The notes under the pieces: model-generated
Databases searched by the model: none
Seen by the model: only the letters and a program-made list of their open reading frames with translations
What the model was told of the DNA's origin: nothing
Translations under genes and position numbers: made by a program
Origin: Treponema sp.
GTDB taxonomy: Bacteria > Spirochaetota > Spirochaetia > Treponematales > Breznakiellaceae
DNA length: 50,196 nt
Reading direction: 5' to 3'
NCBI GenBank assembly: GCA_031256195.1
Contig: JAIRRB010000142.1
Span: forward strand, 1-50,196
In this document: positions 3,645 to 43,179 of the stretch, piece by piece
Numbering within the stretch: position 1 is the stretch's first letter
Layout: each line of letters starts with the position of its first letter

Positions 3645-3650
3645 AGTATG

Positions 3651-14805: not shown

Positions 14806-14842
14806 AAAACAAAAAAAACTGTCCGGGTTGCCCCGGACAGTT
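14806..14842 (-). terminator. Intrinsic terminator of the giant-lipoprotein operon
   Basis: Minus strand AACTGTCCGGG-GCAA-CCCGGACAGTT followed by a T-rich tract; 11-bp perfect stem, ~27 nt past the stop codon. Confidence 0.9.
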
Positions 14843-14868: not shown

Positions 14869-17800
14869 CTAGAACCCTGTTGGCATAGCGGCCGGCTTGT
14901 AGAAGTAAGCCAGGCGGAACAGGTCGCTGGCGTAACCGACTGCCGCGTCCCAGGCGTAAGCCGCCCCGGTATTACGAGCGACCACTGCTCCGCCGCGGTT
15001 AATGGGCGGCCAGGATTCGATGTTCAGGCGGTCATTGTTGACGGTGAAAGGCGCCGGCATGGTCAGGGCTTCCCAACCGGTTATAAGTTGGCCGGGAACA
15101 AATGGGTCATTTAACGCCCTGCCATTAAACTGGCCCCGGTACGCGATGCGCACGCCGTCACGTTCCCCGGTACGGGTGGAATCCGCATACACAATGTAGG
15201 GATTGCCGTTTGAATCAACTGAAATGTCCGTCCAGGCGCCGCCCTGTACAACACTGTCAATGGCATAGACGGTAAAGGCGGTGGTTTTGGTGCCTACCGC
15301 ATAGACGACGATGTTCTTATTGCTGTTAAAGAAGGCCAGATGGATGTTGTTATTCCCGTCAATCCTCATGCTGACATAAGCGCCGGAACCGCGGCGCAGG
15401 GCATGGTTTTCCGAAATTACATAACGCCGCGTCCATTGGTCATTAGTTCCCGGATTGGGATTATTTCTGTCGGCATACGCCAGACGGAGCGTGTCATTTG
15501 TTTCATCGTAATACGCGATAACCGGATAACCGTTGGTATCATAGTCAATGGCGCTGTATTTGCCGGCCCGTGTTGATGTAGAGTTGCCACGTGCTGTAGT
15601 TCCCACATTTCCCCAGGTATTAGTATTGGCAATATTAGCTCCGACACCGGTACCGGCTGTACCGCCGCCGTCAAGGAAGTATTGACCATCTCTGGCGCCG
15701 ACATATCTGGTATAGAACAACCGGGCATACACCGCATCATAGGCGGAAATAAAGGCGCTTCCGGCATTAGTAGCGCTACCTGATACGGCGTTTTTCCTGA
15801 TTCGCGCGTTCTGCCAGCGGTCGGTTGCGGAAGGATTAACAGCATCCCCCAACGTAGGATAGGTAGCGACCGGAGGCCCTAAAGTACCGGTAGCATCATT
15901 ACCAGCTGATACCTGTGTTTTTATCCTCAGGGTAGCCGCCCCGTCATCCTGAGACGCCGCTACCACACTGGCGTTGTTGTTAGCGAAAGCGGCGCCGTTC
16001 CAGTAGTCAATGTCGGTATGCGAGAACGGCTCGGCATATCTCCCCAACAAAGTTCTGGCAGGACTGCCGGTGCTGCCGCCGGCAGTACCGTAATAGAAAC
16101 CGGCCAGACCATAGGTTGACCATGCTCCGTGGAGCGTACCTGCCCCGCCTCCGCCGGTGTTATACTGTAGCGACATACCCGGACTGTCCAGACCGCCTGA
16201 ACCGGTAAAGGACAGCGTCGGGTTACCGGTACTGGTAACCGGATCGGAGCGCCAAATATGGACATAGGGCTTGTTGACCCACAGATCGGAACCGGGGGTG
16301 GAGGGATTGTATTCCCTGTTCCACGATCTGGCGGTAACGGGAACGGTAACACCGCGGTTGTAATCCTGATTCAACGCAACGCCGGTGCCGCCGGTGCCGT
16401 TAACCGCAACGTTTATAGCGCCGCTGGCCGCCGCCGCGGGTACGGTAAAGGTATAACGCCTTCTGTCGGGACTTGCGGCATCATGGACATACGTCGGGGC
16501 TGCGGTATTGGTTCCACCTATGTTCACCGTAATACCGGAACTTGCGTTACCTGCGGTATTTTTGTTAATGCCCAAATTATATCCCCTAACAGAAATTCCC
16601 GCTTCGCCCTGATAGAAACTGTACCAGCCCTGCAAGGAACGTTTGGTGGTAAAATCGGGCGTTTTCCGCTCAAAGCCGATGATGTAGGGTACTATGTCAA
16701 CGGTTACCGTGTTGTGGAATTTGGTGTCGTCATCCGGTAAAGGAGTGCCGGAATAACCGCTGGATTCGACGGGATTAAAAACTAAATAACCCTGAGTTGT
16801 GGTATCCGTGCCTGCCGCGTTCAATGTTTGGGTACTGGAAAGGCCCTTGGCGCCGGATGGCTGGCCGCCGCCACTTATCATCTGCCCATGTATGTCTACA
16901 ACCTCAACCTGAATAGCCACACCATTCACCGGCAGAGCAGTGGCGCGGCCAGTGGCGGGTCGAATCTCGGTGTCCCAGACATAGGCCCATTCAACCGTAT
17001 GGCCGGTCTGCCAGTGCATTTTTTCAGACGCGTAAGCCTGCGTAGTTCCGACCGGCTGCATACTGCGGGACTGACCGGCGGTAAGCGGCGTTGTTATGGG
17101 GGGTGTCAGTTTGAGTATGGGTATGGCAGCATCACCGCCTATCTTGATTCTAATCTCGTCAATCAACTGATCATCCCAGGCAAGACCGCGCAAAATAACC
17201 TTGCCGCTGACTTTATCATTAATGCCTGCCCCGCCGGCGTCATTGTTTTGATAATTGTCGGCGGTAACAGTCCGCTGCCATCGCGGATTCTTAAACCAGG
17301 GCCTCATGGCGGTGGTATCGGTGCGGGGATCAATGTAACCGGAACGGACCGGATTATCTTCCGTGCCGGTGTTGAACAGGCCGCCGCGCAGGATGTTTTG
17401 TTCTATCTCCTGATTTTGCGGATCGGCGGCATTACGGATGGTTGCCGCGAGATTGGCCGCGGTGACATTATTGTCCGTTACCGCAAGCTCGGTGTAGGGG
17501 TTCAAATCGTAGAGCCGCGCAATGGGCGGAGTATAATCGGACAGGAATACATTCATGCCGATTACCACCGCGTCGTACAGCATATCATACTCGTCATGAC
17601 CCGGTTGGCCATAGCTCGTGCCGTTTACCGTATCCCATACCTTAATCAGGAAGTATGCCGTGTCAGCGGGGTCATCATACACAGTGCCCTGCACCGGACT
17701 GGCAGGTTTCAGCGGTTCACCCGGCTGACTGCCCCGTTTCTGGAGTATTCTGCCGGTGCCAAAGAAGGGGCCGGTAACACCGGAAGGAGGCGTATCAGCG

Positions 17801-23800: not shown

Positions 23801-26800
23801 GTAAACGCCAGCAGCGTGACATTCGGGTCCGTAAGGCTGCCGTCAGAATTATGTATCTCTGTGCCAAATTCGTTCTCCACGCGGAAGGACTTTACCGTAA
23901 TGGGACCGTTACGGTCGGAGACCTGTCCGGTAATGGTTGCGTTACCGGATAAAAACCCACTGGGTGTGTCGGTGGCGGGGGGAATATTGATTTCCGGCGA
24001 AACGGAATCCACCGCTATCCAGAATGATACGCTGTTAGCCGCAACTTCCGCCGGATTCGGATCGGTACCCAGTATCAGCTTGGCATTAACATCGTCCTTA
24101 ATTTCAATGTGTATCCGGTAAATGCCGTCGGGAAGGCTCCGGTATTCCTTGCCTGTCTCGAACAGGTGAGCATAGTTTGGATTGATGCCCCCCAGGGACG
24201 GCGGCAGGAGCATTTCAAGCAAATCGGTCTGCCGTATGGTAATGGTCGCCTCTTTTGCCGGGGAAGTCCGGGTCTGCAGTTGATATTCGGTGACTTCCAT
24301 CTCATAGCCGGTACCGGTATAGGGCTGTATGCTTCCGGAGCCATCGGTATAGGAACCGGTAAACGTAATTTTGAGTTCATCCAGATCAAGGGCGTCATCA
24401 TCCGTTATCCTAATCCGGATATTGGTGTTCTGTCCCAATACATTCTGCCGAGTGTTTGCGTCTATTATAAAACCATTAGCCGAGTAATCAGAACTGATAT
24501 TCGGGTCGGTAACTTTTTCGCTGACCTGGCCTACGGAAAAGTCAAATTGCGGCCGGTCTGTTTCCTCTTGTACATCGAGCGTAAACCAGTTGTTTCCCAC
24601 ATTAAAGGCATTATCGCGGCAGAAAACATACAACTGATAGCTGCCGTCATCGAGTTTGTCCGTTTCCGCGGGGTCTTGATTTACGGCATTCCCGCTCCAG
24701 GTGTTGTAAACCCCCGAAGTTTTTACCTTTAAGGTACCGCCGGTAATCGGGCCGTCCGCGTAAACTTTAATAACGCTGCCGTTGGCGCTTATGCCGCCGG
24801 TTGTCAAGTCACCGGGCTTTGTCAGCGGCGTTATGGGCCACCATGTTCCGTCGGCGATTAATGCCTGCATCGCCGGGCCGCTGGTTTCATCAACCAGTAC
24901 ATAGAACCGGTCGTAATCATCGAAATAGTCCTCGGTGGCGATACGAACCAGCGAATCCTCGGGGCGTTCTTCCAGGAACAGGAAATAGGGCTGCACTACC
25001 CCGTTTACGGTAAACGCGGTCGGCCCTTCCTCGCTGAAAACGCCATCCATGCGGGTAAGTTCTATAACGGGCGCTTTTGTATCCAGATGTACCGAATAGC
25101 TTTTCGGCGTTGACATCGGCGTGCCATACAGACTGCGGACATATACTTCTATATTGTAAATTCCGTCCGGCAGCGGCCCATTTATGTCTTCCCACATTTC
25201 ATTGGCGGCACTGGGGGGTAAAGACGGCCACGTAGCGCCGGCCTTGCCGCTTTTCCAGGTATCGTCATTGGGGCCCTTGTATCGTTGTAGTTTTGAGCGG
25301 CCCCGCACCTGTTCATTATAGGCGGAATCATTGGGAATCCGGTTATTACTTTTTGAGTCATAGGTAAAGATAAAACTGCGGGTCGTGTAAAAAGTCCCCG
25401 TCCTTGAATGGGGGTCACGGTAACCCCAGTAACTGTAGGGAAGATTCGCCGGGACGCTGTTGGCGTCACTCCAGCCCGGGTAAGGCTCTTTCTGCGCATC
25501 ATCCCAGATAAAGCGTCCGCGATCATTGCCTCTTTCCCAATATATTTCGGCAGAGCTGATACCTTCCTGGTGAGACGTTTTTAACCGCAGGGTAAAGGCG
25601 CCGCTCTTTTTGACTGCCATACTGTTCACATAGGGATGGGGACTGTTGTCATTCAGTTCGCCTGGCAGGTCATTGTAGTAACCTCCGTCAGCGTCATTCC
25701 AGCCATTGGGGCCCAGAATATCCTGGAAGTTGTAAAGTTCCGCATCGGGTAAATTCCGGGGTGAGCGGAGATAAATAAGCACATAACGATTTTCTTTTTC
25801 AAAATCTCCCGCACTGGTGCTGTCCCAGTCTACATCGGGACCGTAAAAATCGCGGGGGTAGTGGAAATGCGAACGGCCGTCCTTGTTCTGCGCCCGAATT
25901 TCAAATCCGTAGTAATGGTTGGTTTCCAGCGGAAGATCATAGGTAAACTGATAGTTACCCAGATTCAATTCATACAAGGCGCCGGCCTCGCTCCCCGCGA
26001 AACTTTCCCAGGGAACTTGTTCTGTTGTCGGCAAATAGCCCGCCGGATAGCCGGCGCTCTCGCCAGTCCCCTCTCCCACCATCCAGAAACGTATCTGCGG
26101 CGGGTAGAGGTTTTTGTCCGGGTCTGCCGGGCCCCGGTAAATATCCTGGTCATGGCTGATAGTGCCCGACAAAAAAGTTCCCTTGTCCATTTTGCGGATG
26201 TAGTTTATGCCGGGAGACAGGGAATCCACGGTACCGAAATTCAAACGCGGCCCGCCGACTTCGCCTTCCTTGCCGTTATCCGCATCTTCCGAACGGAGAA
26301 TGAGCGGCGCCGCTACGGTTATTGCCGGCGGAGTGTTTTTTATAAAAAACGCTATTTCATCCGTTTCGGCGGTTTTGCCCATTGAATCTACCGCCATAAG
26401 CTGTATCTTTAAGTCGCCGTCCGGGAATTTGGTAGTATCTATGTCTATGTACCATGAATGGGTGTTTTTACCTTTGTTGTTTTTTGTCAGGGTAACTTTG
26501 GTGTAATCCCGTAAATGGGGAATATCGGGGTAATTGGTTACCTTGATTTGTACTTTATCCAGTTTGTAGTCGTCCTCGGCGGTTCCCGTAAACCGTTTGA
26601 CACCCCAAATATAGTCGGCGGCTTTGGGGCTGTCCAACTGGACAGTCGGGGGACGGGTATCCACCACGGGGCCCAGCCCCGCTTTGAAGGGCTGTTCGCA
26701 GGAAAGTATTGCCATAAACGCCATGAGGATGAGGCATATTCGACCGAAGAAATTTACCACAGAGGACACGGAGTAACACCGTGAATAACAAGATTCTGTT

Positions 26801-26892
26801 TTTTCCTTCCGTGAAACTCCGTTAAACCCTGTGAAACTCCGTGGTGAATTCTTCTTTACAATGTTTATATTCATGGCTTCATTCCTCTTCAT
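14869..26892 (-). CDS. Giant (~4007 aa) multidomain lipoprotein with many Ig-like repeats, an IPT/TIG-like segment and C-terminal propeller-like repeats
   Basis: Signal peptide FFGRICLILMAFMAILSC; repeated D-x-x-x-P-x-[IV] Ig-domain starts (DTRPPTVQL, VDNEPPAVDL, YDTKDPEIKI, KDNTPPTFTF, IDPASPEFDF...); C-terminal GYPVIAYYDETNDTLRLAY and SVDSNGNPYIVYADSTRTGERDGVRIAY repeats. Confidence 0.9.
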   Translation of the reverse strand: MKRNEAMNINIVKKNSPRSFTGFNGVSRKEKTESCYSRCYSVSSVVNFFGRICLILMAFMAILSCEQPFKAGLGPVVDTRPPTVQLDSPKAADYIWGVKRFTGTAEDDYKLDKVQIKVTNYPDIPHLRDYTKVTLTKNNKGKNTHSWYIDIDTTKFPDGDLKIQLMAVDSMGKTAETDEIAFFIKNTPPAITVAAPLILRSEDADNGKEGEVGGPRLNFGTVDSLSPGINYIRKMDKGTFLSGTISHDQDIYRGPADPDKNLYPPQIRFWMVGEGTGESAGYPAGYLPTTEQVPWESFAGSEAGALYELNLGNYQFTYDLPLETNHYYGFEIRAQNKDGRSHFHYPRDFYGPDVDWDSTSAGDFEKENRYVLIYLRSPRNLPDAELYNFQDILGPNGWNDADGGYYNDLPGELNDNSPHPYVNSMAVKKSGAFTLRLKTSHQEGISSAEIYWERGNDRGRFIWDDAQKEPYPGWSDANSVPANLPYSYWGYRDPHSRTGTFYTTRSFIFTYDSKSNNRIPNDSAYNEQVRGRSKLQRYKGPNDDTWKSGKAGATWPSLPPSAANEMWEDINGPLPDGIYNIEVYVRSLYGTPMSTPKSYSVHLDTKAPVIELTRMDGVFSEEGPTAFTVNGVVQPYFLFLEERPEDSLVRIATEDYFDDYDRFYVLVDETSGPAMQALIADGTWWPITPLTKPGDLTTGGISANGSVIKVYADGPITGGTLKVKTSGVYNTWSGNAVNQDPAETDKLDDGSYQLYVFCRDNAFNVGNNWFTLDVQEETDRPQFDFSVGQVSEKVTDPNISSDYSANGFIIDANTRQNVLGQNTNIRIRITDDDALDLDELKITFTGSYTDGSGSIQPYTGTGYEMEVTEYQLQTRTSPAKEATITIRQTDLLEMLLPPSLGGINPNYAHLFETGKEYRSLPDGIYRIHIEIKDDVNAKLILGTDPNPAEVAANSVSFWIAVDSVSPEINIPPATDTPSGFLSGNATITGQVSDRNGPITVKSFRVENEFGTEIHNSDGSLTDPNVTLLAFTFLDSVSLSPEVWLVGFTARLNLTPGVSGTYVLVLELQDRFGRSSVITRSYQVDNEPPAVDLREKIPTFERNYGDVNLTTPTGTDFDGVTNNKLRLTNGVIYFTINATDNFKVNTVRWWLLPESPGLNFSLPDKYTPAQMATSDFDNYQPTGTLTGIGRNGKLNSGFQSTRIFIDTAALTDNKEYHLYVAAMDTAGNVCREATGFPFILQKIYVLQDQDKPYFSADITPNNTTEGASTAILRGTIEEDDGFRAGDGTGIMAGAVRVRMSTTSGDLGTATWVPIPETNGSTRNYRRQGNNLILSINLIDYFSTSYSSNIFASDGQKYYQIEVTDSWYGKYVVTTGTQGEPDTSTRVSSQSPLLINPYSFMYDTKDPEIKITLPASGDSAGAAFAVSGTIMDANLAQKKDLDSALSNPDFYYVRYWLDSDIQNIKTFEITNNTAGGHIHDDTPNAGETTVDFTIPAATLWGADSYDFGDLDQGPHTLFLTVKDKSGKEGSASLLFIKDNTPPTFTFTNIEEEELSTVPDGTAGWYTTNWNYLKDKKLTVIQYGEDVPFIQGTFDDDVSDIDTNSFYFAFDDGSMIGPLAAFGAGSGKNVSWKVYITDTGLEGGTILADGIHTFEFTIKDSVGNQLYADPSRPKFGFRLNSALPTVDVSVPVAVFGNKGSLPTDTVLSVTGSAKSANIKGVEVSIRYTDKAGSPTITGTVSEGTWTFAGASPVIETIPWTLNITRGMLYQAAVDSSKLTPGSYELIAKSSDLYGNESNEFVWSFIIDPASPEFDFNLNTTANTTDRLPESWRTDNARNVIRDAQPRIQGRVSDALSNLTAVEYQIRKYNYVGRNWQYYNFGTPGWNGAPTDWANVVPPLAASPEYSLNLDLKALLTAPLLTDGYYCIQLRAKDSSTIGGGAGWTNADDGNPAVSNYVYFFYAADDITLNNAGSTDQYFSSKKNAPGYNLPFTVAAASLNSFDRLEVAVSPTGGTVGSSPVVGTPPVNTGFNNTTWNPSVNITFNPAACKDGTYNIIFTVYDLAGSYKSVSRTIILDNKDPAGRIDDPRFIAAIANHPGSPYQYASETIYGGDDYTIKGITDDTGDNGSASGVKSLWYHLGYLGTGTDSNLTFPTEAQISDSYATATAANAWFEYAANKDVPHGFTSMPTNPADVNLRNWELEIKHIANTSDIKDYTGPLSMYGTSYNPSSGTGRWLVQKIDESKIPLAYQKSGLYSMPLWIRVEDNVGNVFFTCRDLWIYPHGDNPSAVITNPSASTVKPTDNPRGGAISIEGVASDNKSVRSVIYRVFADSTHGTEAQALAPPVIASLVTLGKPALPSLTSVTAPYEYAVFTNSDYNTNLGSGGFNGWYRATMEDLEGPPNVGWSFMINAEDEIKDLIPLRGFSQSGSGPYDTIRVYVEIFVLDGDPTAPPANPPAYAANNLLSLGDSTNLNAPKPYVRAFYLKNTAPKIDTKEISNHGSTTSFGPYPGYYDSDNKRPFVRRGQFAFRAHLDSGDTNTSINQISVRMQDGLSWQDAYVGGTNRNLPGITLNSTDNYRNCTITYQFDSLLTAKPGAGAASDWVKVGSDTFEKTGGKFTVDVRIRDNNSPPGEDTYTFELGVDNFAPLADTEKLITPKKAAGTNVSFIGRVFDYFNSPNTPRPDYKSTMEGYRSIDKVYAWFTKDENHTQYLSMKDGSPLVGAPATMNAYVGRSAEVKYTDDSKPDAIEQIGSGAVYPAGITEGTSQSISYPNPLTAADYVKELSDATGGIMANRVTWQPTGAHDILWSFITDTTVLPDGWIYLNYLVIDSVGNASFYQQKTVIMNKNPWINTVTLLTDNKGEGAAFSTHDGDEAKTTYPIGIYSSGYLNSGFISKNTVIGFGISTVSGNAPLNYRLEYVNREAIPLTAANLAKMANERWGDPGGFGDAAAGNVYTIKTTKGVDSYTWAALGVVHGDIEAGANFVFTAKLADIVGMNYLNAEVWRYTRVDPNLIRGIYNQGDDIPPTDLLFSDNAADTPPSGVTGPFFGTGRILQKRGSQPGEPLKPASPVQGTVYDDPADTAYFLIKVWDTVNGTSYGQPGHDEYDMLYDAVVIGMNVFLSDYTPPIARLYDLNPYTELAVTDNNVTAANLAATIRNAADPQNQEIEQNILRGGLFNTGTEDNPVRSGYIDPRTDTTAMRPWFKNPRWQRTVTADNYQNNDAGGAGINDKVSGKVILRGLAWDDQLIDEIRIKIGGDAAIPILKLTPPITTPLTAGQSRSMQPVGTTQAYASEKMHWQTGHTVEWAYVWDTEIRPATGRATALPVNGVAIQVEVVDIHGQMISGGGQPSGAKGLSSTQTLNAAGTDTTTQGYLVFNPVESSGYSGTPLPDDDTKFHNTVTVDIVPYIIGFERKTPDFTTKRSLQGWYSFYQGEAGISVRGYNLGINKNTAGNASSGITVNIGGTNTAAPTYVHDAASPDRRRYTFTVPAAAASGAINVAVNGTGGTGVALNQDYNRGVTVPVTARSWNREYNPSTPGSDLWVNKPYVHIWRSDPVTSTGNPTLSFTGSGGLDSPGMSLQYNTGGGGAGTLHGAWSTYGLAGFYYGTAGGSTGSPARTLLGRYAEPFSHTDIDYWNGAAFANNNASVVAASQDDGAATLRIKTQVSAGNDATGTLGPPVATYPTLGDAVNPSATDRWQNARIRKNAVSGSATNAGSAFISAYDAVYARLFYTRYVGARDGQYFLDGGGTAGTGVGANIANTNTWGNVGTTARGNSTSTRAGKYSAIDYDTNGYPVIAYYDETNDTLRLAYADRNNPNPGTNDQWTRRYVISENHALRRGSGAYVSMRIDGNNNIHLAFFNSNKNIVVYAVGTKTTAFTVYAIDSVVQGGAWTDISVDSNGNPYIVYADSTRTGERDGVRIAYRGQFNGRALNDPFVPGQLITGWEALTMPAPFTVNNDRLNIESWPPINRGGAVVARNTGAAYAWDAAVGYASDLFRLAYFYKPAAMPTGF
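26754..26851. repeat. Palindromic repeat element (ACCACAGAGGACACGGAGT ... ACTCCGTGGTGAA)
   Basis: Left arm accacagaggacacggagt versus right arm ccctgtgaaactccgtggt, imperfect inverted copies; right side also holds a direct repeat (c[ct]gtgaaactccgt twice). Lies inside the N-terminal coding region of the 4007-aa ORF. Confidence 0.75.
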
Positions 26893-26907
26893 TTTTTTAC
26901 CCTCCCC

Positions 26908-29900
26908 CTACTTCACATAATAGGCTATGCGGTAATAATCCGGCGCAAGGTAGCCGACCGCTCCTGCCCAGAACTTGGTAGTCGGGTTAGGCGTTCCGGC
27001 ATAGTTCCGTGCCGGATAACATTCCATACCCAGACGGGTATTTACCGTAGCGGACGCGTCCTCTACCCGGCCATAGGTGGGAACATTCATCGCCTCCCAT
27101 CCGGTAATGGGCTGGCCCCATACATCAATGTCTTTACCGGTAAAGTAGGACGTACCGCCTTTATAGAAAACGGCGCTGTCCAGATACGCTACCTTTACCC
27201 CGTCCCGGGAACCGCGGAAGCTTTCATCCTTGTAGGCAATCCAGGGATTACCCTGGCTGTCCAGCGAAAGTTTACACCAACTGCCCACACTGCCCACGCT
27301 GTCCACCACCTGCACGGTAACGTTAATCAATACGTTGTTTGCGGCGGCGGTGGTATCATCCTGACTGGAAGTTCCCCTTACGGGATACAGTTCGCCTCTG
27401 ATGTAGACCATGTTCCGGTTCAGCGAGTTCAGGGCCGCGATGTGAATAATATCGTTTGCTCCCCGCGTGTCAATCATCATACTGACATACTGGCCGGTGC
27501 CGTTATAATTCAGATTGTCCCGCGGAATAACATTGTCCCGTATCTTCCAGCTTGCGGCGGCAACGGGCATTGTAGTGCCGTTACTGACCGCCAGTTTCAG
27601 TTTACCGTTGGTCTCGTCATAGTAAGCGATAACCGGATAGCCGTTTCTGTTCAGAGCAATCGCATTATGTTTGCCGGCATCAATGTTATACCCTCTCCCC
27701 TGAGTCTGGGTACGAGTGTTCCAATTTACTATCCGTCCGTTTGTCGCTATTGCGCCTATAAAATCATTGGCAGGCCTATTACCGCCACCGGCTCCGGTAG
27801 CCCAGTTGGTATTATTGGCGGCATTATACGCATTCTGGTCATCCACATCATAACCGCCGTCCAGGTTGGTCCATGCGTAAGGAGCGGTACTGTTGGCGGC
27901 GGTTGTGGCTGTACCGGCAGCGCTACCGGTTATCGTACCAGGACTGCCCCGCCGATTGTACCGATATTTCATTGAACCATCCTTGTCATCGTAGTAGCTG
28001 ACATGAATATGTTCATTGGTGCCATCGTAGTAGGTAATAATATGGGGGTTAAGGAACTGGTTCAAAGCAGGCGGATTAGACTGTGTTCCTGGCGCATTGG
28101 CATTGGCATTATAACTACAGCTTTCAGCCAGATATTGTGAATTAAACACCGTGTCACTGTTGGTAGTAGCAGCTAACCCGCTGGTAAGACCGGCATTACC
28201 GCCTCGCGGACCGCTGATAAAAATACCGCCTTTGCTCGCCCATCCTGTACCACCTCCCTGTTCGCCAATAATACTGTGAGCGGTCCAGACCGTTGTTAGA
28301 TTGGTACTGATAAATATATCGCTGGTAATAATGGGGTCGCAGAATTGCGCAACCCGCGTCATGCCGGTAGCGGCGTTCGTACTGTAATCAATACCGCCCT
28401 GATTACCCCCGGCCTGACTATGGCTTGAGTAGAGGGTTCCGTTGGCCGGGTTAATGGTCATGGCGGGGTCTTTGACAATCATGTTGGTAGTTTTATCAAA
28501 GCGGCCCCGGTCGGTCCCGGTGTTATGCGTATCATCCGACTGCCAGATATGCAGCATGGTAAAGTCGTCCCACAACTGCGAGCCGGCTATACCGGGGGAA
28601 CGTTCCGTATTCCAGGGTTGAATAACCGGTCTAACGCTGTTAGCCGCCAGCCTTTCAGTTCCGGTGTTAACCGCCATGTAGCCGCTTACCGTAAACGCTA
28701 CTTTGCCGTTGCCGGTTACGGCCCCCGCGGGTACCGTAAATTGCCGGTAACGGGATGCGCTGACCGCTGCCATGTCCACCTCATAGGGATTATTTGCCGC
28801 TGTAGCGGTTATATTACCAACATTGATTGCGTTAGTATAAGTACCGGCGTTCGCGGTCGGCAGACCAATAGTGGGCGTAACACCCGATGCGCCCAGGTTA
28901 AAGCCGCTTATCACGGCGACTTCACTCTGCGCGAACATATACCGGCCCTGGCGGGAACGGGTGTCGTGGGCGAAATCGTTCTTGTTCCGCTTAAATCCGG
29001 TTATGTAGGGCCGCAGGTTTATCCGCATGGAGTTGTAACGCCGGAATTTATAGTGGTTGTCGCCGCCCAGCGCAAACCGCGAATCGTAGAGGGGGAAGTC
29101 CGGATTGTAATAATCCCAGACGCCGTTATAGTTGGCCTGGGTATAGGTGGCGGGCGTGCCGTAAGCGTGGGAAATATGTGTATTGGAATCTTTCGAACCC
29201 TTAGGCGTGGCATTGTTTGCGTTATACGCAACAGCGCGGACGGTAATATCACCCACTACCGTACCCGTTGCACCCCCTAACGTAGTAGCGGGAAGCTGTT
29301 CCGTATCCCACAAATAGGCCCATTCCACGCGGTGGCGGTTCAGGTCGACCGTTTCGGTAAATTCAACATCGCCTCCCCTGAGCGCAGCGCCCTTTCTCAG
29401 GAAGGGGGCGGGGTTAGCGGTCGTATTATTGTTAAACTCCAGTATGGTAACAAAATCCGTCCGGTTGCCGGTATTCGCCGCGTTATAGAATTCCAGATCA
29501 ATCCGGTGTATACGCTGGTCGTCTTCGGCATAGCCGCGCAGGATAACCTTGCCGCTGACCGTGTCTATATTAAGGAAAGAGGCAATGGCGGCGTCATCAA
29601 CCAGCGGCTTCTGCATGGTAGCGGCAGTAGCGGTCGCCGCTCCGCCCATTTGACCGCTGGTCAGCGTATGAACATAGTTCGTACCGCCGATGGAATTTTT
29701 CCGCGGCTCAATGTGGCCGGACTTTTCAACAACCTGCACCGTGCCATTGTTATACAGGCCGCCTTTAATGCGGTTGCCGCCCATATTCATCTGCAGCGCG
29801 GCTGTTTGCGTCACGTTGGTATCCTGCCCCTCGGTTTTGGGGTTCAGGTCGTAGAGCTGGGCGTAGGGCCGTGTCTTGTCATCATTGTTCACCCTGATCG

Positions 29901-32900
29901 AAAGCAGGGCAAAGTCGCCGAATAATTCTTCTTCATCGCCGTCAAATACCTTGACGATAAAGAGCGAATGGGCTACCCAGGGATTCACGCCGGCGAGCGG
30001 GTACGGCAGGGGCCGGTCATCCGGGGCGAAGGCAGGAGCAAAGTCTGTAATTCTGGTTCCGGCTGCCGTGCCAAAGGCATTACTCCCGTACATAAATTCA
30101 GCGCTATACGCTCCGGTAGTATTACCGGGGGTGCCGCCTTTTAAGGCAACATCAGGAAGTCCCAGAGTTCCCGGATGTGTGCGGGCAAACGGATCGGCAG
30201 GGGTTTGGTAGTAACTGCCGTTGAGTTCCCATGCCGAAGGAGTCCCGTAAGCGCCGGCCTGTATCGTTACATTGGCGCCGTCTTCAACGGCCATAAACGC
30301 CATGCCTCTTCTGGCGGTATCGCCTTCCGCAACGCGCAGACCATAACTGCCCCAGGGGAAATTGGCGCCCGGATCGTTAATGATGTATATCCTGCCCGCC
30401 CTTACATTCAGCAATCTGGTGCCGGCATTATAGGTAATCGGTACCGCGCCGGAAACATATTCAACGCGGAAGGTTCGTTTGGTTTTACTCCATGTCTTCA
30501 GGTTTTCATCAACCGTATCAATTAAGTCTACCTTTACGGCCAGCAAATTATTACGCACGGTAAACGCTTCATCATATACCACGCCGTAAGCGTTGAGTCT
30601 TTCGGTATTGATGGGTATGGCCATGCTTATGCCCTTGTCGGTATCCGGATCAGCCGCTGTCAGGCCGAGTTTGCCCTGAACGGCAGTCCTGATCTGTGAA
30701 ACCGGGGCGGCGCCCATATGAGGAGTACCATCAGCGGTAACACCGCCGCCCGGCATTGCCACATACCTTCCGTTTCCGGCGCCCAGCGTCGCTCCCAGGC
30801 CGGTATCACCGCGAATGTCGGTCGCCAGGGTAATGCGGTTTATGCGCGGGACATTGTTCATAATGACCAGTTTCTGGGTATAGTATTTGGTATTGCCCGC
30901 TTTGTCGTACACAATATAGTGCGCGGTAACGCGGCCGGATTCCATTTTGGTGCTGTCCAGCGTTACATACCATGAGGTGCCCAATGAGCCGCCTGAAGCA
31001 AAGCCCATGCGCAGTCCATGTCCGTGGTGCGTTCTTTGACCCATCGGGTCGTTGCGGTCAATAACGATACAGTCGTTGCCACCGGTTAAGGCGGATTCGG
31101 CAGGTATAACGGGTACATTAACACCCGCAAGCGAACCGTCGGGCAGAGTTGTACCGCTGCCGTTAAAGGCGTCGGTGTCTCCATCCCACTTAAAGGATGT
31201 TTGCGTACCGTTGATCATGCGCGAGAACCAGAGTACCACACGAGACAGACCGTTTACCGCGCCGGTATCACCGGCTTCCCCGCCAAAGGTAGCGTCGGTA
31301 CCGGCGACAAAACCATTATGCGTATACATTCCTGTCGGCGGTAAATTGTCGATGGGGAGATTGAGCGTTTGTTCCTGTTTTAAGGGTATAACTTTGGACG
31401 TTTCCGTTGCCGTAAGTTCAACATCGTGGTAAGCCGCGCCGCCCAGGTATTTGCCGCCCTCAAGAATATTGGCGTTTATGTCAATAACAACTATCCATTC
31501 AAAGTAGCCGTCGACCATTTCCATAAGCTCTGTTACGCCGCCACTGGAGACATTAACGGTTCTGCCCTGTTCCAGAGTGAATGTGGTTAAACGTTTGTTG
31601 TCGTTTGTCGGCACCAGTATGGTCGAAGCCGAATCGGTGATGGCCGCCGCGCTGCTGGTAGTCCATATCATAAATGTTCTGGCCGCGGTGAGAGCGTCCA
31701 ATGCGGTTAAACCGGTGGTAATCAACGCTTTAGGCCCGGCCTTTGCCGCAATGCCGGGGTTAGTGTTCGCGTTATAGGTACCGCCGCTCATGGCGGTTAT
31801 GTGAGTGCCATAGGTGGTGGTAGTATACGGGTTCGCCGCAAGCAGGTCATAACCGTTCCAGGTTATGCTCCCGACGCCCTGAGTGTGTTTCACGGTAACG
31901 GCATAGGCGGAACGCCCTCTCATGTAGGTGGTTACATTGCTGCCCCACACGCCAGCACCCAGCGAGGAAGAAGAACCGTTGACTGCGGGATTCAGCACCA
32001 TGTCATCTTCAAAGCGCGGCGCACCGCTGACCACATAGGCATACACCGATGATTCAGAGGTTTTTTTGCTGTAAAGACCCATAGCCGGGTCCCAGCCGCC
32101 GTCGGGCGGTATGGAATCGACCCAGGTGGTATCTTCGGCCATTACTTCAATCGTTATTTTGGCGCTGTTGGAAAATATCGGGTCAAGTTCGCCTTCGGTA
32201 TTGATATAGGCCCACCATGACACCGAACTGCTGCCGCCGCCGTTGGCCTTATACCAGCCGATACCCAGAGATGTGTTTACTCCGGCTACATTATGAAAGA
32301 GTTCCTGAGACGTTTGATTTTGATTACCGGCTGGCTCCCATGTTTCCTCATTCCATTCCGGAATGCGGATGTCTGTCGCGTAGGTTTCGGTTTCAGCTTT
32401 TAACACCCGGAACCAGACACGCTTAACGCGGACGTTATCCACGGCGGTACCCGCAATACGGATTCTGCCGTTCAGCATCCGTTCAGACTCAGGCGCGTCC
32501 TGTTTGGGACTGTTGATTTTGTCAACTATCGGCCGGTCTCCTTCGGGATATATGTAGTACGTAAACGGCGTTACCTCGCGGTTACCCGCTTCATCAACGG
32601 CAAAGTAGTAAATGGTCAGCGGATAAATTTCCTCGCCATTGGGGATACTCGCACCGTTAAATGTAAGTGCTGGAATACCGAGAGTGATGGTAGTCATGGG
32701 TCCCAGATAGTTCGGGGATGAAGTCAAAAAGTCCCGGGTATTGGGCAGGGTAATAACGGCGGAAGAGGTGCCGGGGGCTATCTCTGCCAGTGTTTTACCA
32801 CCGACCACCAGATTCCAGGGATCGGCGCCGCCGCCGGTATTATAATGCCAGCCGCTGCCCACCGCTTTTACCTGTTCTACAGTGGGCATGGCAGGAGACG

Positions 32901-35900
32901 GAGCGGCAGACCCGGTTCCGATATAGAACGCCGCCATTTGAACGGGGCTATCGGTGAGTTTTGAGAAACTGCCGTTAATTATTACCCGTCCGGTTACGGC
33001 AGTATCGTTCGTCCTGAGGGGAACGTGGGGAGCGGTTATGGTCGGCGCGGTATTGTCCAGATTGAATTCGATTTTATCCTCGGCCGCCCGGCCCGCTCCA
33101 TCCGTTGCCGTGAGCGTCAGACTGTATTTATCGGATGGTGCGCCTCCCATACCGCTAATCGTTACCGTTACCGCGTATGTGAGAGTATTGGGATCATAGG
33201 CAGCAGGAGTCACGGTAACACTGCCCGCGGAGGGGCTCAGGTTCGCGCTGACACCTTTAATGCCGTTGGCATCTGTTACGGTATACTGAAATACAATGTT
33301 GCCGTCGGCGCCGCTATAGTAATCTTTGCGGGTAGTGAGCCCTGTTATATTCGGAAGAGTGCGGTCGATAAAGAACACCCGTCCATTGGGAGCATCAACC
33401 GTCTCATTCAAAATCAGCGCGTTCCCCGCCGCTTCCAGTTGATCATTGAGCGAGTAGTCGGTCGCATAGAGGTCCAGCCGGTACTTGCCTTCAGTGTTAA
33501 AGAGATTTGCCGGGTAACCGGTCAACGCGGCGTTATCCAGCGTCCATGACACTGAACTCTTTATGGTTTCGGGAGCAAGTAAATTGGGCCAGGAACTGTA
33601 ATTATTATTGGGTGTAGCCGTCCAGGTTGTACCGTTGTAATATTGCCATCCGGAATTTGTGCCCGCGTAATTCCACCGGGCAATACGGTACCGTATTTCC
33701 TTTACATTGGTGAAGTCTTCGACCATGCCCTGCAAGCTGATAGTCTGGTTCATCAGAGTCGAAGCCGCAGTCTCATTCAAATTATAGTATTTTACATCGG
33801 GCGGTGTACCGTCCAGAGAGAAACGCCAGCTTTCCCGGCTGGAATTCTTTCCCGCCAGGTCTGTCGCGACCACAACAATCTGGCGGCGTACGGCTTCTGA
33901 CGAGTCACTGACTAAAAGAGCCGCAAGATCGCCCTTGGTTACCTTGAGGGTCCATACATACACATTATTGGCATTGGCGGGCATCGCTCCTATGTTGCCA
34001 TACAAACCACCATCCTCTATTATCGCCTTTTTAAGGCTCAGGTTGCCGCCTTTATCGTACTCCGGAACAACATCAAAATCATTCTGGTCAATTTGGTCCA
34101 GCTTTTCCGAAACTTCGGCGTTTGTATCATTGGAGTTGGCGTAAATGCCGACGCTCAGGCTGGTCAGGTTATGCTCGTACACCAGGCCGCTCAGGAAAAA
34201 GGCGGGATTCGTGTCACCGGTAGTATAGCCGGAGGCGCTGAATACCCGTGTATATGCGTCTGCCATGACCAGTTGTTTGCTTCCGCTGCCCGCTGTTACT
34301 ACAAAGGCAGCCTCTTTGGACAGTTCGGGAGGAGCGCGGTCAACAAGAAAGACAACGAATTCTTCCCGCGTGTTGCCATAAGAGTCCGCCACCGTTATTG
34401 TCAGGGAATGTTCGCCGTCCGGAAAACCGGGATCATTGGGTATTTTAATTTCCCAGTTGGCGGTTTTGTCGGGCGTACCGCTATCGCCGAAGGTATTTAC
34501 GGTATTAATTAAGCCGCTATTGGGCAGACCTTTATCAAATTGATAGGTAAAGGTATTTGCTATATTGGAGTATTCATCGCGGAAATTACCCCTAACGGCA
34601 ACGGCGCTCGCTTCGCCCGAAATAATGCCGGTACTCATATTGGTAAAGGTAATAAGCGGCGGCGAGGTATCCTTATAGAAGGTATATTCAACACGGGTTT
34701 TTTGTCCCACCTGGTCAATCGCTTCAATGGCAATGCTCTGCATACCATCAGGCATGGATGAATGGCTAAAAGGCGCCAGCCAGGCGGAAACCAGATGCCA
34801 TCCGCCGGCGTAATTTTTGTCATATCTGTTGCCGACAGGAACATTATTCGGATTAACGGTTATCAGTTCCTGGTCTTTGACGGTCGTTCCGGTGTATGTC
34901 CCCGGAGTGTTATAGGTAAATTTAACGGATTCAAGGTATCCGTCCACCACATAAAGATCGTTAAGGTCTGCCAGCAGTTCCGCAGACGTTCCGTAGACCG
35001 GACGTTGAGAAGTATAGCCGTCATGACCCGGTTTAACGTCGTTTCTGGTAAAGTAGACCTCAGGCAGTTCTTTTTTAAGATAGAAACTATAATACCCGCT
35101 GGTGGGGAATTGCCGCTGAACCGGCCCAAGGGTGAGATTACCATCGGGGTTTTTTCCCGGGGGATCCGCGAATTTCAGGGGATTCGAGGGATTCAGATTC
35201 ACAGCGGCTACAGCCTCATCCGTTATGAGAATTTGGTAACGCTTTTCACCGTCTGTCGCAAAATAACCGCTAAAGTTATTGGTCTGCAAATTCAATACAA
35301 ACCTTATTTCCCCCATTGCGTCCGGCCCGGAAAGGGCAGCGCCGGAGAGGCCGGAGTTAATCGGTATCCAGTTACCCCAGGCGTTGTTGGTCCCGGACGC
35401 AAAACGAATCTGTATATAAGTACCGAGTTTGTCTTTGTCGAATCCGTCATCATCAAAAGCCTTACCCTCTATGACCAGACTCGTCGTTTCGCCGGATATG
35501 ACGGCGCCGTCATCGGGCTTTAAGGAGCCTTCGACCAGAACCGGCAAATCGCTGTTCTGATTAACGGTAAAGGTTCTCAGCGGCGGCGTCCCCGCCGTTA
35601 ACACGCTAAAGTTACCCGCTTTGTCCTGGGCGATTGCCCAGAGATTGTAGGTAGCATTATCGGCAAGATTGGTGGTGTTCAGAATAAACTGGTAATTTCC
35701 GCCGCCCTTGTTGTCGGTTGTTTTGAACCGGCCGCCCAGTCCGGCAGCGCCTCCGCCGGGGAATGGGTACGGCGTAACGGTAATTGTCCCGTCCGGGGCC
35801 ATAGTAGCGGTTGGGCGCGAAGCGGCTGAAGGCAGTATCCACCACCATACATTGGCATTAACGCCGTCATCCGCGATACCGTTCAAATCGGTCGCCATAA

Positions 35901-38900
35901 TGACGATGGGAACCTTGCCGTTTAAGATATATTGGTCTTCCTCGTTGGGAAGGCGGCCAAAGTTAAAAAACGATTCACTCAGTTCCACAGCGGGGGGCGT
36001 TGAGTCTACCTGTATGGTACGGTCGGCAATGCCGTGGGTGCCCAGGCTGTCGTAGGCTACCAGGTTAAAGGTCCGCCATTCAAATACGGTTGCTCCTGAC
36101 GCAAAAACAAGGTCATTGCCGAAATTGACGGCAGCGGGAACCGCCCAATCATAGACCCAATAGTTATCTTCGTCCAAGTCTAATCTGCGTACCATTGTCA
36201 GCGTAGGAGTAGCACCCCATGTCTGTAAAGAACTCGTGGTAACAACACCTGTGGAAGAAACAGAAGGCCATGCGCCCGAATCCATGCCGGGGCTAAAGGT
36301 AATCTCCAGTTTTGTAATTTCAAGCCGGCTCTTGACCGTTCCTTTAACTTCAATCGCTTCTTTATTTCTGGAGGAATTGTTTTCAATGCCAATAACATCT
36401 ATAACCGGCGCCTGGGACTGTACGGCAAAATAGAAGGTTTCTTCTTTTGACACTACCGTCGGCACATCGCCCGGCCGGCTGCTCTGGGGATATCGGCTTA
36501 TCCCTACCTTTACATCAATATTGTCCGTAATTTTAATCGTTAATACATAAAAACCGTCATACAGGTTTTTGGGCAGCGGGTCCTGCCCCTCATACATGGC
36601 CTCCGCCATAATTGCCTGGGTCAATGTACCGGACAATTCCAGACTGCTGCCGCTCTCCAAATAATCTTTGCCGTTCAGCGCCTTTTTTAAGAGGGCCAAA
36701 TTCTCGTCTTGTTTCAGATATACTTCTTTACCGCTGTTCAGGTCTTTCAGCGTTATTTCCACGCCGCCCTTGTTCATGCTAATCCCATCATCATCGGTAA
36801 AGGTCAATTCTATGCCCTGATCACTATCAAGGATATTTTGTTTAGTGGTATTGCCGCCTGTCGGGGCGCCTGTCAAATTATCATAGGTAATCAGCAGGTC
36901 ATCTTTGCCGGTTATTATCCCGTCGTTCTTAAAATCACCCCCCGCTACAACCATGCCGGGAATATCGGTTGAGTCATCCACACTGAGTTTCTGTACGATG
37001 TAGCCCAGATTATAGACCTTGTCCTGGGCGATTATATACAGCCACAGGTCTTCCCCATCCCATTCGTTGCTGTTTTTGAGAAGAGGTCCGCCGGAATCTT
37101 TCCAGGCGTTAAACTTAAAGTTGTGGGTCGTTTCCGGCCTTACCCAGCCGGATATCGGCGTCTCGCCGATATCGTTAAAAAATTGCAGGTTGTCCGCCGT
37201 GGGGTTCGCGCGGAAGGTTTCGAGTTTACTGATTATGTTACTGTTGTCAGCCGCATTGGGGGGCGCTTCCTGCACTATCCATTTGACTACCGGGATATTA
37301 TCATCCTCTGACGCTCTAATGCCCAATAAAGCGCCGCGGTCTACCGAAACCTGTATATTGCCGTTGACTATGTACGGATCATTATTAATCCAGGCGCCCG
37401 CACTCCCCGTGTTGCCTCCCGCCGGGTCCTCCGCCTGCCCTATCATGGAGCGTATGGTCGCTTCGGGGCCGGCTCCGTCTATATACAGAAGGTAATTCGC
37501 CACACCCACAATGCCGCTGACAGAATACGCCCGTACTTCCAGCGTGTAAGGATCGGAACTGCTGGTAAAAATCTTTCTATTAGTCACAGTGCCGTCATCG
37601 TACTCTTTGCTGTTGTCTCCGGTATAAACAAAAACATTGCCTATGCCCGTAAAATCGCCGGCGCTCCCGTTGTCCCAGTTCAGATTGCCGGAACGTCTCG
37701 CCAGCCCGGCCCCATGACTCCATGACAAGGTAGCATTGGCAATCCCGTCGGAATGCGCCGCCAGTATACGCAAGCGGAATTCATTTATTTTCATTGCCGT
37801 CGGCGCGTTTATGTAGATATTGGGATGCCTATCCAGTTCTGCCGGGGTTTTGTCGCTGTTATCCAGTTCAATTTCGGGAGGCTCGCCGGAACTGACCACC
37901 TGGAGGGAATAAAAGGGGCCCCTGTCCAGGGGTTCGGTGTCCGTATCGCGTAACACGGGATGCCAGCCGACCGCTTCCACTTCATCGCCTTCGGGCTCAC
38001 GGGGGAACATAAATGTATCCGAAGCGGGATCGTCATCAAAGAAGGTATCGGAGGTTTGTATTCTAAAACGGTACACTCCGGTCTCAAGGGGTTCGAAATC
38101 CCCGCTGGAAAGATCATACCGAATCTGTCGTGTGTCCGGGTCTATCGTGAATTTGGACAGTCTGAAAACAAAATTGGCGGCGCGCTCAACCGTCTGACTG
38201 TTACGATCTTTATAACTCCAGTTTTTGGCTTCATCATCAGTGGTGTCAACGCCGGAAAGGAACAGGACGGCCCAGCCCCATTCGGGGTCATCGCCTGCGG
38301 GTTCAGGCCACTCTTCCGGCCAAATTTTAATGCGGGGGTATCCGGGCTTAATGCCCCGGCGGTCGATTATTTGTCCCCGGACTTCCGTATTGGTCCCGAG
38401 TCTCGGCGGTTCAATATCACCTTCCAGTTTGGAACTGTCCGGCGCAGTCATTTTAACGATTGAAGGGTTGTTTTTAATGATATAGACCAGCTCTGCGGTC
38501 TTTCCCATATTGCTGGTGCGATTCGAGTCATATACCCGGAACTGTATTTTCAGGAAGCCGTCATCCAGAATCTGCCCGTTGAAATCCAGAGTGTTCAGGT
38601 CAAAGGTCCATGTTTTTTGCTTGGGATCGTCGCCTGTCATTTTTAGTTCGGGATGAGTCCCGTCATGCAGCGGCGGTAATGAATCATCTTCCTGGTTAAA
38701 TATTTTTACTTCTACCCGTCTCAGTTCACGGTAAGCGTTGACCGTTCCGCTGAAATGGACAACTCCTTTCAGATAGGAGCCTACGGACGGGTCGCCCAAT
38801 GTTATAGTCGGCGGTTCTATGTCAACCTTTCTCCCCAGATTGTTGCTAAAGGGATTTTCGCATGAGACGAATACCGCAAAAACCGCAATGGCGACCGCCG

Positions 38901-38937
38901 AAAAAAACAATGTGTTTTTCAGATACCTGGACAACAT
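26908..38937 (-). CDS. Giant (~4009 aa) Ig-like-repeat lipoprotein, tandem paralog of 14869..26892
   Basis: MLSRYLKNTLFFSAVAIAVFAVFVSCENPFSNNLGRKVDIEPPTITL (lipobox); serial Ig-like starts (VDSTPPAVEL, KDTSPPLITF, LDNTAPTITA...); shares collinear anchor motifs with the neighbouring giant gene. Confidence 0.9.
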   Translation of the reverse strand: MLSRYLKNTLFFSAVAIAVFAVFVSCENPFSNNLGRKVDIEPPTITLGDPSVGSYLKGVVHFSGTVNAYRELRRVEVKIFNQEDDSLPPLHDGTHPELKMTGDDPKQKTWTFDLNTLDFNGQILDDGFLKIQFRVYDSNRTSNMGKTAELVYIIKNNPSIVKMTAPDSSKLEGDIEPPRLGTNTEVRGQIIDRRGIKPGYPRIKIWPEEWPEPAGDDPEWGWAVLFLSGVDTTDDEAKNWSYKDRNSQTVERAANFVFRLSKFTIDPDTRQIRYDLSSGDFEPLETGVYRFRIQTSDTFFDDDPASDTFMFPREPEGDEVEAVGWHPVLRDTDTEPLDRGPFYSLQVVSSGEPPEIELDNSDKTPAELDRHPNIYINAPTAMKINEFRLRILAAHSDGIANATLSWSHGAGLARRSGNLNWDNGSAGDFTGIGNVFVYTGDNSKEYDDGTVTNRKIFTSSSDPYTLEVRAYSVSGIVGVANYLLYIDGAGPEATIRSMIGQAEDPAGGNTGSAGAWINNDPYIVNGNIQVSVDRGALLGIRASEDDNIPVVKWIVQEAPPNAADNSNIISKLETFRANPTADNLQFFNDIGETPISGWVRPETTHNFKFNAWKDSGGPLLKNSNEWDGEDLWLYIIAQDKVYNLGYIVQKLSVDDSTDIPGMVVAGGDFKNDGIITGKDDLLITYDNLTGAPTGGNTTKQNILDSDQGIELTFTDDDGISMNKGGVEITLKDLNSGKEVYLKQDENLALLKKALNGKDYLESGSSLELSGTLTQAIMAEAMYEGQDPLPKNLYDGFYVLTIKITDNIDVKVGISRYPQSSRPGDVPTVVSKEETFYFAVQSQAPVIDVIGIENNSSRNKEAIEVKGTVKSRLEITKLEITFSPGMDSGAWPSVSSTGVVTTSSLQTWGATPTLTMVRRLDLDEDNYWVYDWAVPAAVNFGNDLVFASGATVFEWRTFNLVAYDSLGTHGIADRTIQVDSTPPAVELSESFFNFGRLPNEEDQYILNGKVPIVIMATDLNGIADDGVNANVWWWILPSAASRPTATMAPDGTITVTPYPFPGGGAAGLGGRFKTTDNKGGGNYQFILNTTNLADNATYNLWAIAQDKAGNFSVLTAGTPPLRTFTVNQNSDLPVLVEGSLKPDDGAVISGETTSLVIEGKAFDDDGFDKDKLGTYIQIRFASGTNNAWGNWIPINSGLSGAALSGPDAMGEIRFVLNLQTNNFSGYFATDGEKRYQILITDEAVAAVNLNPSNPLKFADPPGKNPDGNLTLGPVQRQFPTSGYYSFYLKKELPEVYFTRNDVKPGHDGYTSQRPVYGTSAELLADLNDLYVVDGYLESVKFTYNTPGTYTGTTVKDQELITVNPNNVPVGNRYDKNYAGGWHLVSAWLAPFSHSSMPDGMQSIAIEAIDQVGQKTRVEYTFYKDTSPPLITFTNMSTGIISGEASAVAVRGNFRDEYSNIANTFTYQFDKGLPNSGLINTVNTFGDSGTPDKTANWEIKIPNDPGFPDGEHSLTITVADSYGNTREEFVVFLVDRAPPELSKEAAFVVTAGSGSKQLVMADAYTRVFSASGYTTGDTNPAFFLSGLVYEHNLTSLSVGIYANSNDTNAEVSEKLDQIDQNDFDVVPEYDKGGNLSLKKAIIEDGGLYGNIGAMPANANNVYVWTLKVTKGDLAALLVSDSSEAVRRQIVVVATDLAGKNSSRESWRFSLDGTPPDVKYYNLNETAASTLMNQTISLQGMVEDFTNVKEIRYRIARWNYAGTNSGWQYYNGTTWTATPNNNYSSWPNLLAPETIKSSVSWTLDNAALTGYPANLFNTEGKYRLDLYATDYSLNDQLEAAGNALILNETVDAPNGRVFFIDRTLPNITGLTTRKDYYSGADGNIVFQYTVTDANGIKGVSANLSPSAGSVTVTPAAYDPNTLTYAVTVTISGMGGAPSDKYSLTLTATDGAGRAAEDKIEFNLDNTAPTITAPHVPLRTNDTAVTGRVIINGSFSKLTDSPVQMAAFYIGTGSAAPSPAMPTVEQVKAVGSGWHYNTGGGADPWNLVVGGKTLAEIAPGTSSAVITLPNTRDFLTSSPNYLGPMTTITLGIPALTFNGASIPNGEEIYPLTIYYFAVDEAGNREVTPFTYYIYPEGDRPIVDKINSPKQDAPESERMLNGRIRIAGTAVDNVRVKRVWFRVLKAETETYATDIRIPEWNEETWEPAGNQNQTSQELFHNVAGVNTSLGIGWYKANGGGSSSVSWWAYINTEGELDPIFSNSAKITIEVMAEDTTWVDSIPPDGGWDPAMGLYSKKTSESSVYAYVVSGAPRFEDDMVLNPAVNGSSSSLGAGVWGSNVTTYMRGRSAYAVTVKHTQGVGSITWNGYDLLAANPYTTTTYGTHITAMSGGTYNANTNPGIAAKAGPKALITTGLTALDALTAARTFMIWTTSSAAAITDSASTILVPTNDNKRLTTFTLEQGRTVNVSSGGVTELMEMVDGYFEWIVVIDINANILEGGKYLGGAAYHDVELTATETSKVIPLKQEQTLNLPIDNLPPTGMYTHNGFVAGTDATFGGEAGDTGAVNGLSRVVLWFSRMINGTQTSFKWDGDTDAFNGSGTTLPDGSLAGVNVPVIPAESALTGGNDCIVIDRNDPMGQRTHHGHGLRMGFASGGSLGTSWYVTLDSTKMESGRVTAHYIVYDKAGNTKYYTQKLVIMNNVPRINRITLATDIRGDTGLGATLGAGNGRYVAMPGGGVTADGTPHMGAAPVSQIRTAVQGKLGLTAADPDTDKGISMAIPINTERLNAYGVVYDEAFTVRNNLLAVKVDLIDTVDENLKTWSKTKRTFRVEYVSGAVPITYNAGTRLLNVRAGRIYIINDPGANFPWGSYGLRVAEGDTARRGMAFMAVEDGANVTIQAGAYGTPSAWELNGSYYQTPADPFARTHPGTLGLPDVALKGGTPGNTTGAYSAEFMYGSNAFGTAAGTRITDFAPAFAPDDRPLPYPLAGVNPWVAHSLFIVKVFDGDEEELFGDFALLSIRVNNDDKTRPYAQLYDLNPKTEGQDTNVTQTAALQMNMGGNRIKGGLYNNGTVQVVEKSGHIEPRKNSIGGTNYVHTLTSGQMGGAATATAATMQKPLVDDAAIASFLNIDTVSGKVILRGYAEDDQRIHRIDLEFYNAANTGNRTDFVTILEFNNNTTANPAPFLRKGAALRGGDVEFTETVDLNRHRVEWAYLWDTEQLPATTLGGATGTVVGDITVRAVAYNANNATPKGSKDSNTHISHAYGTPATYTQANYNGVWDYYNPDFPLYDSRFALGGDNHYKFRRYNSMRINLRPYITGFKRNKNDFAHDTRSRQGRYMFAQSEVAVISGFNLGASGVTPTIGLPTANAGTYTNAINVGNITATAANNPYEVDMAAVSASRYRQFTVPAGAVTGNGKVAFTVSGYMAVNTGTERLAANSVRPVIQPWNTERSPGIAGSQLWDDFTMLHIWQSDDTHNTGTDRGRFDKTTNMIVKDPAMTINPANGTLYSSHSQAGGNQGGIDYSTNAATGMTRVAQFCDPIITSDIFISTNLTTVWTAHSIIGEQGGGTGWASKGGIFISGPRGGNAGLTSGLAATTNSDTVFNSQYLAESCSYNANANAPGTQSNPPALNQFLNPHIITYYDGTNEHIHVSYYDDKDGSMKYRYNRRGSPGTITGSAAGTATTAANSTAPYAWTNLDGGYDVDDQNAYNAANNTNWATGAGGGNRPANDFIGAIATNGRIVNWNTRTQTQGRGYNIDAGKHNAIALNRNGYPVIAYYDETNGKLKLAVSNGTTMPVAAASWKIRDNVIPRDNLNYNGTGQYVSMMIDTRGANDIIHIAALNSLNRNMVYIRGELYPVRGTSSQDDTTAAANNVLINVTVQVVDSVGSVGSWCKLSLDSQGNPWIAYKDESFRGSRDGVKVAYLDSAVFYKGGTSYFTGKDIDVWGQPITGWEAMNVPTYGRVEDASATVNTRLGMECYPARNYAGTPNPTTKFWAGAVGYLAPDYYRIAYYVK

Positions 38938-38997
38938 ATACTACCTCCGGGAGAAAATGGAGACACACCTCTTGCAATATACAACTATCCCATTATC

Positions 38998-39027
38998 ATT
39001 ATATAATAAGACATATTCAAAAATCAA
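38998..39027 (-). promoter_or_regulatory. Candidate sigma-70-type promoter for the giant-lipoprotein operon
   Basis: Minus strand TTGATT-N18-TATAAT, ~60 nt upstream of the ATG at 38937, with SD CCGGAGG near the start codon. Confidence 0.4.
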
Positions 39028-39059
39028 CATATATTTGCAAAAAAACCGAGGGTTTGGCT

Positions 39060-43139: not shown

Positions 43140-43179
43140 TGCACGGAGAGAAAAAATTAAACTCCGTGCACTCCGTGGT
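43140..43179. repeat. Inverted-repeat hairpin sharing the ACTCCGTGGTGAA core with the 26.8 kb element; possibly terminator-like
   Basis: TGCACGGAG (43140-43148) / CTCCGTGCA (43162-43170) form a 9-bp stem, followed by CTCCGTGGTGAA; between convergent genes. Confidence 0.65.

Follow-up and report, generated by a model that had tools for sequence, protein, structure and literature searches.

Giant adhesins of the SiiE/BapA/LapA type are secreted by type I systems and have C-terminal secretion signals, often together with RTX repeats. In spirochaetes, the leptospiral Lig proteins are Ig-like repeat proteins of about 1200-1900 aa. Spirochaete lipoproteins can face the periplasm too. Here we analyze a window of 50,196 nucleotides, i.e., the whole stretch of DNA presented above, from a MAG (81% complete, in 249 contigs) of what is probably a termite-gut treponeme. 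It contains a tandem pair of genes for giant Ig-repeat lipoproteins. These giants resemble the SiiE/BapA/LapA-type adhesins in having a very long tandem Ig-like shaft, a distinct end domain and an acidic, cysteine-poor composition, but they differ in having a lipobox and no RTX motif. Like the Lig proteins and OmpL47, with which they are compared by description only, they are spirochaete Ig-like repeat proteins, though they differ from the Lig proteins in length. The best fold matches of their C-terminal head are the beta-propeller lectins PLL/PHL and CV39L (E 3.8e-5 to 1e-3), at 6-11% identity and with no sequence match. Those lectins are free proteins of ~340-360 aa, whereas the head caps a 4000-aa chain with a predicted lipid anchor. 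TDE2508, an adhesion-related membrane protein of T. denticola, was considered as a candidate and rejected, as it has 455 aa (PMC3931704). A literature search on giant or Ig-like treponeme proteins found no description of the family, and it is apparently undescribed.

Results

Gene 1, the upstream gene (26908-38937, minus strand), encodes an Ig-repeat lipoprotein of 4009 aa and 434 kDa, and gene 2, the downstream gene (14869-26892, minus strand), encodes one of 4007 aa and 436 kDa. The 15-nt gap between them (26893-26907, minus strand) carries a strong Shine-Dalgarno-like GGGGAGGG directly before the ATG of gene 2, and ~27 nt past the gene 2 stop there is a terminator-like hairpin with 11 pairs and a T run behind it (14817-14842, minus strand). 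Between gene 1 and a divergent OmpA-type gene, the intergenic region (38938-39059) has promoter-like sites on both strands, five being found where 0.6 were expected. We read the two genes as a putative single transcription unit. The initial annotation had described two adjacent minus-strand ORFs, 15 nt apart and with one terminator, and we confirm the coordinates, the gap and the hairpin. It had also named evidence against translation of either ORF as one polypeptide as a reason for doubt; both ORFs are uninterrupted and have an ATG start. Just beyond the terminator lies a PIN-domain (VapC-like) ORF (14213-14608).

Both products were described as lipoproteins, and by sequence reading each has a spirochaetal-type lipobox whose cysteine, C26 in the upstream and C65 in the downstream product, is conserved in relatives; lipidation is thus a prediction. 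The gene 1 signal peptide ends in the lipobox FVS-C26 (38863-38937, minus strand). Family alignment and an order-wide search place an N-terminal signature and the first Ig-like domain after the lipid cysteine, at 38443-38862 in gene 1 and, after C65, at 26281-26700 in gene 2 (both minus strand). The signature consensus is C-E-x-P-x3-G-L-G-x2-V-D-x2-P-P, with NLG in the gene 1 product where the family has GLG. In gene 2, a repeat search showed that a copy of a repeat dispersed through the genome sits in frame within the n-region of the signal peptide (26755-26850, minus strand). This repeat is palindromic, and its core, TTACTCCGTGTCCTCTGTGGT, occurs within 3 mismatches at 60 places in the MAG, where the same search with a reversed control pattern gave no match. 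The same-genus orthologues of gene 2 are without it, and a GTG just past the insert could be a new start for gene 2. One further match, with 3 mismatches, lies at 43164-43178, between the OmpA-type and a TatD-type gene.

The estimate of ~15-17 Ig-like domains per protein agrees with a self-trained repeat model, which gives 17 and 16 units, sitting at largely matching places in the two giants. Pfam Big_13 scores above cut-off in both products (2e-11), as do Big_3_3 (1e-9) and Y_Y_Y (1e-9) in the gene 2 product. Both giants are acidic (pI 4.8) and have very few cysteines after the lipid cysteine, in which they resemble extracellular repeat proteins. The RTX nonapeptide GGxGxDxxx is absent from both, and so is a C-terminal LPxTG with hydrophobic tail, the gene 1 product having only an internal LPPTG at 2532. 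A type I/RTX secretion route was rejected, since there is a lipobox, there are no RTX repeats and the C-terminus is a conserved head module. Sortase anchoring was rejected because neither giant has the C-terminal LPxTG. No dedicated export system was identified for the giants.

The two products align end to end and in register. BLASTP of the gene 2 against the gene 1 product gives five collinear segments, namely residues 729-2331/609-2184 (E 2e-41), 3079-3628/2991-3541 (E 7e-37), 3762-3999/3740-4009 (E 3e-33), 48-473/11-431 (E 8e-27) and 2791-2859/2643-2711 (E 3e-9). Globally, 3478 columns align at 30% identity. When profiles were made for each protein from same-genus homologues and compared, they gave one alignment of residues 5-4009 of the gene 1 product with 41-3999 of the gene 2 product (E 1e-244; score 2214 over 3421 columns at 26% identity). 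No off-register alignment scores above 195. Because the in-register score is 11 times higher, the similarity is more than that of generic Ig repeats. All six anchor pairs listed in the initial annotation are present, in the same order in both proteins.

The same tandem pair is found in three related genomes, in one of them twice; genome G026 acquired additional copies of the pair later. When the C-terminal modules of four genomes are placed in a tree, the upstream copies group together and the downstream copies group together (support 93/91 and 100/99), and single giants fall apart from both clades. The separate clades mean that the duplication is older than the split of these species. Relatives of gene 2 have 30-43% identity to the window copy and those of gene 1 have 31-56%. 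Single giants of other families align to both products, in most cases across at least the C-terminal half. The in-register profile alignment and the separate clades thus bear out the proposal of an ancient full-length duplication rather than convergent repeats. The sequences point to one such duplication inside a large giant-protein family that is spread over treponemes.

This family consists of lipoproteins of 1,650-7,564 aa with a C..GLGxxVDxxPP N-terminus and a conserved C-terminal head, and both window giants match its N-terminal and head alignments. The head profile matched 126 of 294 genomes of the order (106 of the 180 high-quality ones), on ORFs of up to 6,617 aa, and the N-terminal profile adds the ORF of 7,564 aa. 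Weak single matches per genome to the N-terminal profile are probably generic Ig domains. Beyond the order, strong head-profile matches occur in a few families of the class, and no match was found in the genomes taken as Borrelia or in the genome taken as T. pallidum. The giant family includes a genome that we take to be T. denticola ATCC 35405 (G094). The window genome belongs to the same family as two others, presumably T. primitia ZAS-2 (G062) and T. azotonutricia ZAS-9 (G078). Presumed T. primitia has several giants of 2,000-6,200 aa, one of which seems to be divided between an N-terminal ORF of 771 aa and another of 5955 aa; an intact 5065-aa copy adjoins it. In two other genomes (G141 and G258), three to four giant genes stand in tandem over 30-40 kb.

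The head lies at 26911-28575 in gene 1 and at 14872-16275 in gene 2 (both minus strand); it was delimited in gene 1 by family alignments, and the fold work was done on the gene 2 copy. Alongside the N-terminus and a few anchors, it is among the most conserved stretches, and the profile search shows it to be conserved order-wide. AlphaFold gave a pLDDT of 31 for the 610-aa C-terminus with two alignment rows, and adding two outside relatives to the alignment improved the blades only. The resulting partial model of the gene 2 head has a mean pLDDT of 38 and a pTM of 0.43. Its meander strands, which amount to 2-3 blades, reach pLDDT 58-80 over most of residues 241-380 (numbered within the stretch that was modelled). 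Foldseek against the PDB returned 18 matches at E<=1e-3, most of which are propeller lectins (PLL, PLL2, PLL3, PLL5, PHL, CV39L and a Kordia fucose lectin), with TM-scores of 0.2-0.3 on the query. As the model is poor overall, these fold matches rest on the 2-3 blades.

The head profile matches some proteins of 500-700 aa repeatedly and at short spacing, as expected of blades, although internal blade-like repeats come out weakly in profile self-comparison. A scan of named genomes with the head alignment found only one Myxococcota and one Anaerolineaceae propeller-like protein; a head relative in Myxococcota has a weak BNR_4 match (7.5e-6, below cut-off). A PDB sequence search with the head alignment gave no credible match to a solved structure, and a Pfam scan of the window heads gave no credible family; no Pfam family covers the head. 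From the modelled blades, the head is a probable propeller with a lectin-like fold and probably binds sugar.

Two proteins recur beside the giants, an Ig-barrel protein and a membrane-anchored protein resembling solute-binding proteins. The Ig-barrel protein has Ig repeats and weak OmpL47 matches; its conserved C-terminal domain has Phe as the last residue and, by sequence pattern, reads as an outer-membrane barrel. It is present in 160 of the 294 genomes, i.e., in 123 of 126 with giants and 37 of 168 others (Fisher p 2e-44, a value that ignores kinship and is inflated by phylogenetic non-independence). Where giant positions were listed (105 genomes), a giant head and a barrel partner are <=20 kb apart in at least 46 genomes. 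The solute-binding-like protein (309-456 aa) is found in 21 of 294 genomes, and among its listed matches 18 of 24 are <=20 kb from a giant. In two other lineages, the counterparts of this protein are recognised by SBP_bac_1 (3e-16 in G095, 2.8e-6 in G222). When the PDB was searched by sequence with the solute-binding-like and barrel alignments, no credible match came up.

A same-genus genome (G035) has all of these in one run, giant 1, giant 2, solute-binding-like gene and two barrel genes, and in presumed T. denticola a barrel gene and then a giant of 2178 aa stand side by side. In G042 and G045, a PF10023 (Aminopep)-like lipoprotein fills the slot beside the giant. In the window genome, the solute-binding-like gene and two barrel genes are on another contig (C25), apart from the pair. 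On a third contig (C34, 1-10635), two smaller lipoprotein genes come after an Ig-barrel gene; their products carry the N-terminal signature of the family, and no head is detectable in them. Given the incomplete and fragmented MAG, the separation of pair and partners may partly reflect assembly.

The divergent neighbour (39060-43133, plus strand; 1357 aa if counted from the ATG at position 39060) has a barrel-like N-terminus, FlgD_ig repeats and a C-terminal OmpA domain. It resembles Lsa66, a leptospiral OmpA-type adhesin, over the FlgD_ig and OmpA parts (E 2e-70), but scores 238 against the Lsa66 family cut-off of 700; this likeness is the neighbour's and not the giants'. As a component of the system it was rejected, since as many as 220 of 294 genomes have it and, in presumed T. 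denticola, its gene is well away from the giant. Two ORFs upstream of the TatD-type gene (567 and 259 aa, 44038-46520) have no Pfam match.

Discussion

With moderate confidence, we favor the giants being lipid-anchored surface adhesion fibres with a glycan-binding tip, aided by partners in assembly or uptake. The suggestion of a surface fibre or adhesin made in the initial annotation is strengthened by the lectin-like head and the linked outer-membrane barrel partner. The lipidated N-terminus would anchor the giant in the outer membrane, and the shaft, with some 16-17 Ig-like domains or more, would point outward, reaching at least 65 nm at roughly 4 nm per domain. The beta-propeller at the free C-terminal end could then bind a glycan on a protist, plant fibre, mucus or neighbouring cell, and we propose that the cell adheres to surfaces because the tip is bound. 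The Ig-barrel protein, with its Ig arms, and in some lineages the solute-binding-like protein, which may be anchored in the inner membrane, would be the usual partners and probably help in export, docking or handling of bound sugar. One ancestral giant would have duplicated before the related species split, with the copies diverging afterwards. Two diverged tips suggest two ligands, and the copies thus probably bind different ones.

The same parts could instead serve nutrition, with the giants as a lectin net that traps polysaccharide and the barrel and solute-binding-like proteins passing on oligosaccharides, in spirit a spirochaete analogue of Sus-type systems. We regard this as possible but rather unlikely. 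By eye, three tandem giants in G141 are followed by ABC permease-, substrate-binding- and GH2-like hydrolase genes, and in G035 genes that look like glycosidases and permeases are found some 12-20 kb away from the giants; the SBP_bac_1-like character of the partner in some lineages also fits. However, that partner is found in so few genomes, no ABC permease stands beside its gene in the core cluster, the window neighbours are not glycosidases, and fibres measuring tens of nm are uncommon in uptake systems.

A chain of Ig domains might also link the envelope layers as a periplasmic or envelope-spanning tether and support a cell that is bent by its periplasmic flagella. Co-occurrence with an outer-membrane Ig-barrel protein and the peptidoglycan-binding OmpA domain of the divergent neighbour would suit such a role, which we nonetheless consider unlikely: lengths of 1,650-7,564 aa and tandem arrays are ill-suited to a fixed periplasmic gap, a lectin-like head fits outside ligands, and the OmpA-type neighbour is common where giants are absent. 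We judge it very improbable that the tandem copies are antigenic paralogues, shaped by diversifying selection or recombination and serving mainly for variation. Though multi-copy tandem arrays occur in several genomes and the copies are strongly diverged, the head is more conserved between species than most of the shaft, and the clades have been kept separate with no sign of homogenisation.

For the adhesion fibres that we favor, a bolder form can be drawn. The giants, the Ig-barrel protein and the solute-binding-like protein would make up one trans-envelope machine that exports lectin-tipped fibres and returns glycan, and the fibres would be the tip fibrils of T. primitia; we consider this a long shot. 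Fibrils that extend from the cell tip of T. primitia in cryo-tomography are mentioned in the part of PMC7554043 that cites Murphy et al. 2008, and their link to the giants is speculation.

Gene deletion is established in T. denticola (PMC3931704), where a giant appears to stand beside a barrel gene, and the idea is therefore directly testable. In our genome sample, these very long genes make up an envelope gene family that is both large and common among treponemes. If the giants are glycan-binding fibres, they would be candidates for the tip fibrils of T. primitia and would help to explain the attachment of termite-gut, rumen and oral treponemes.
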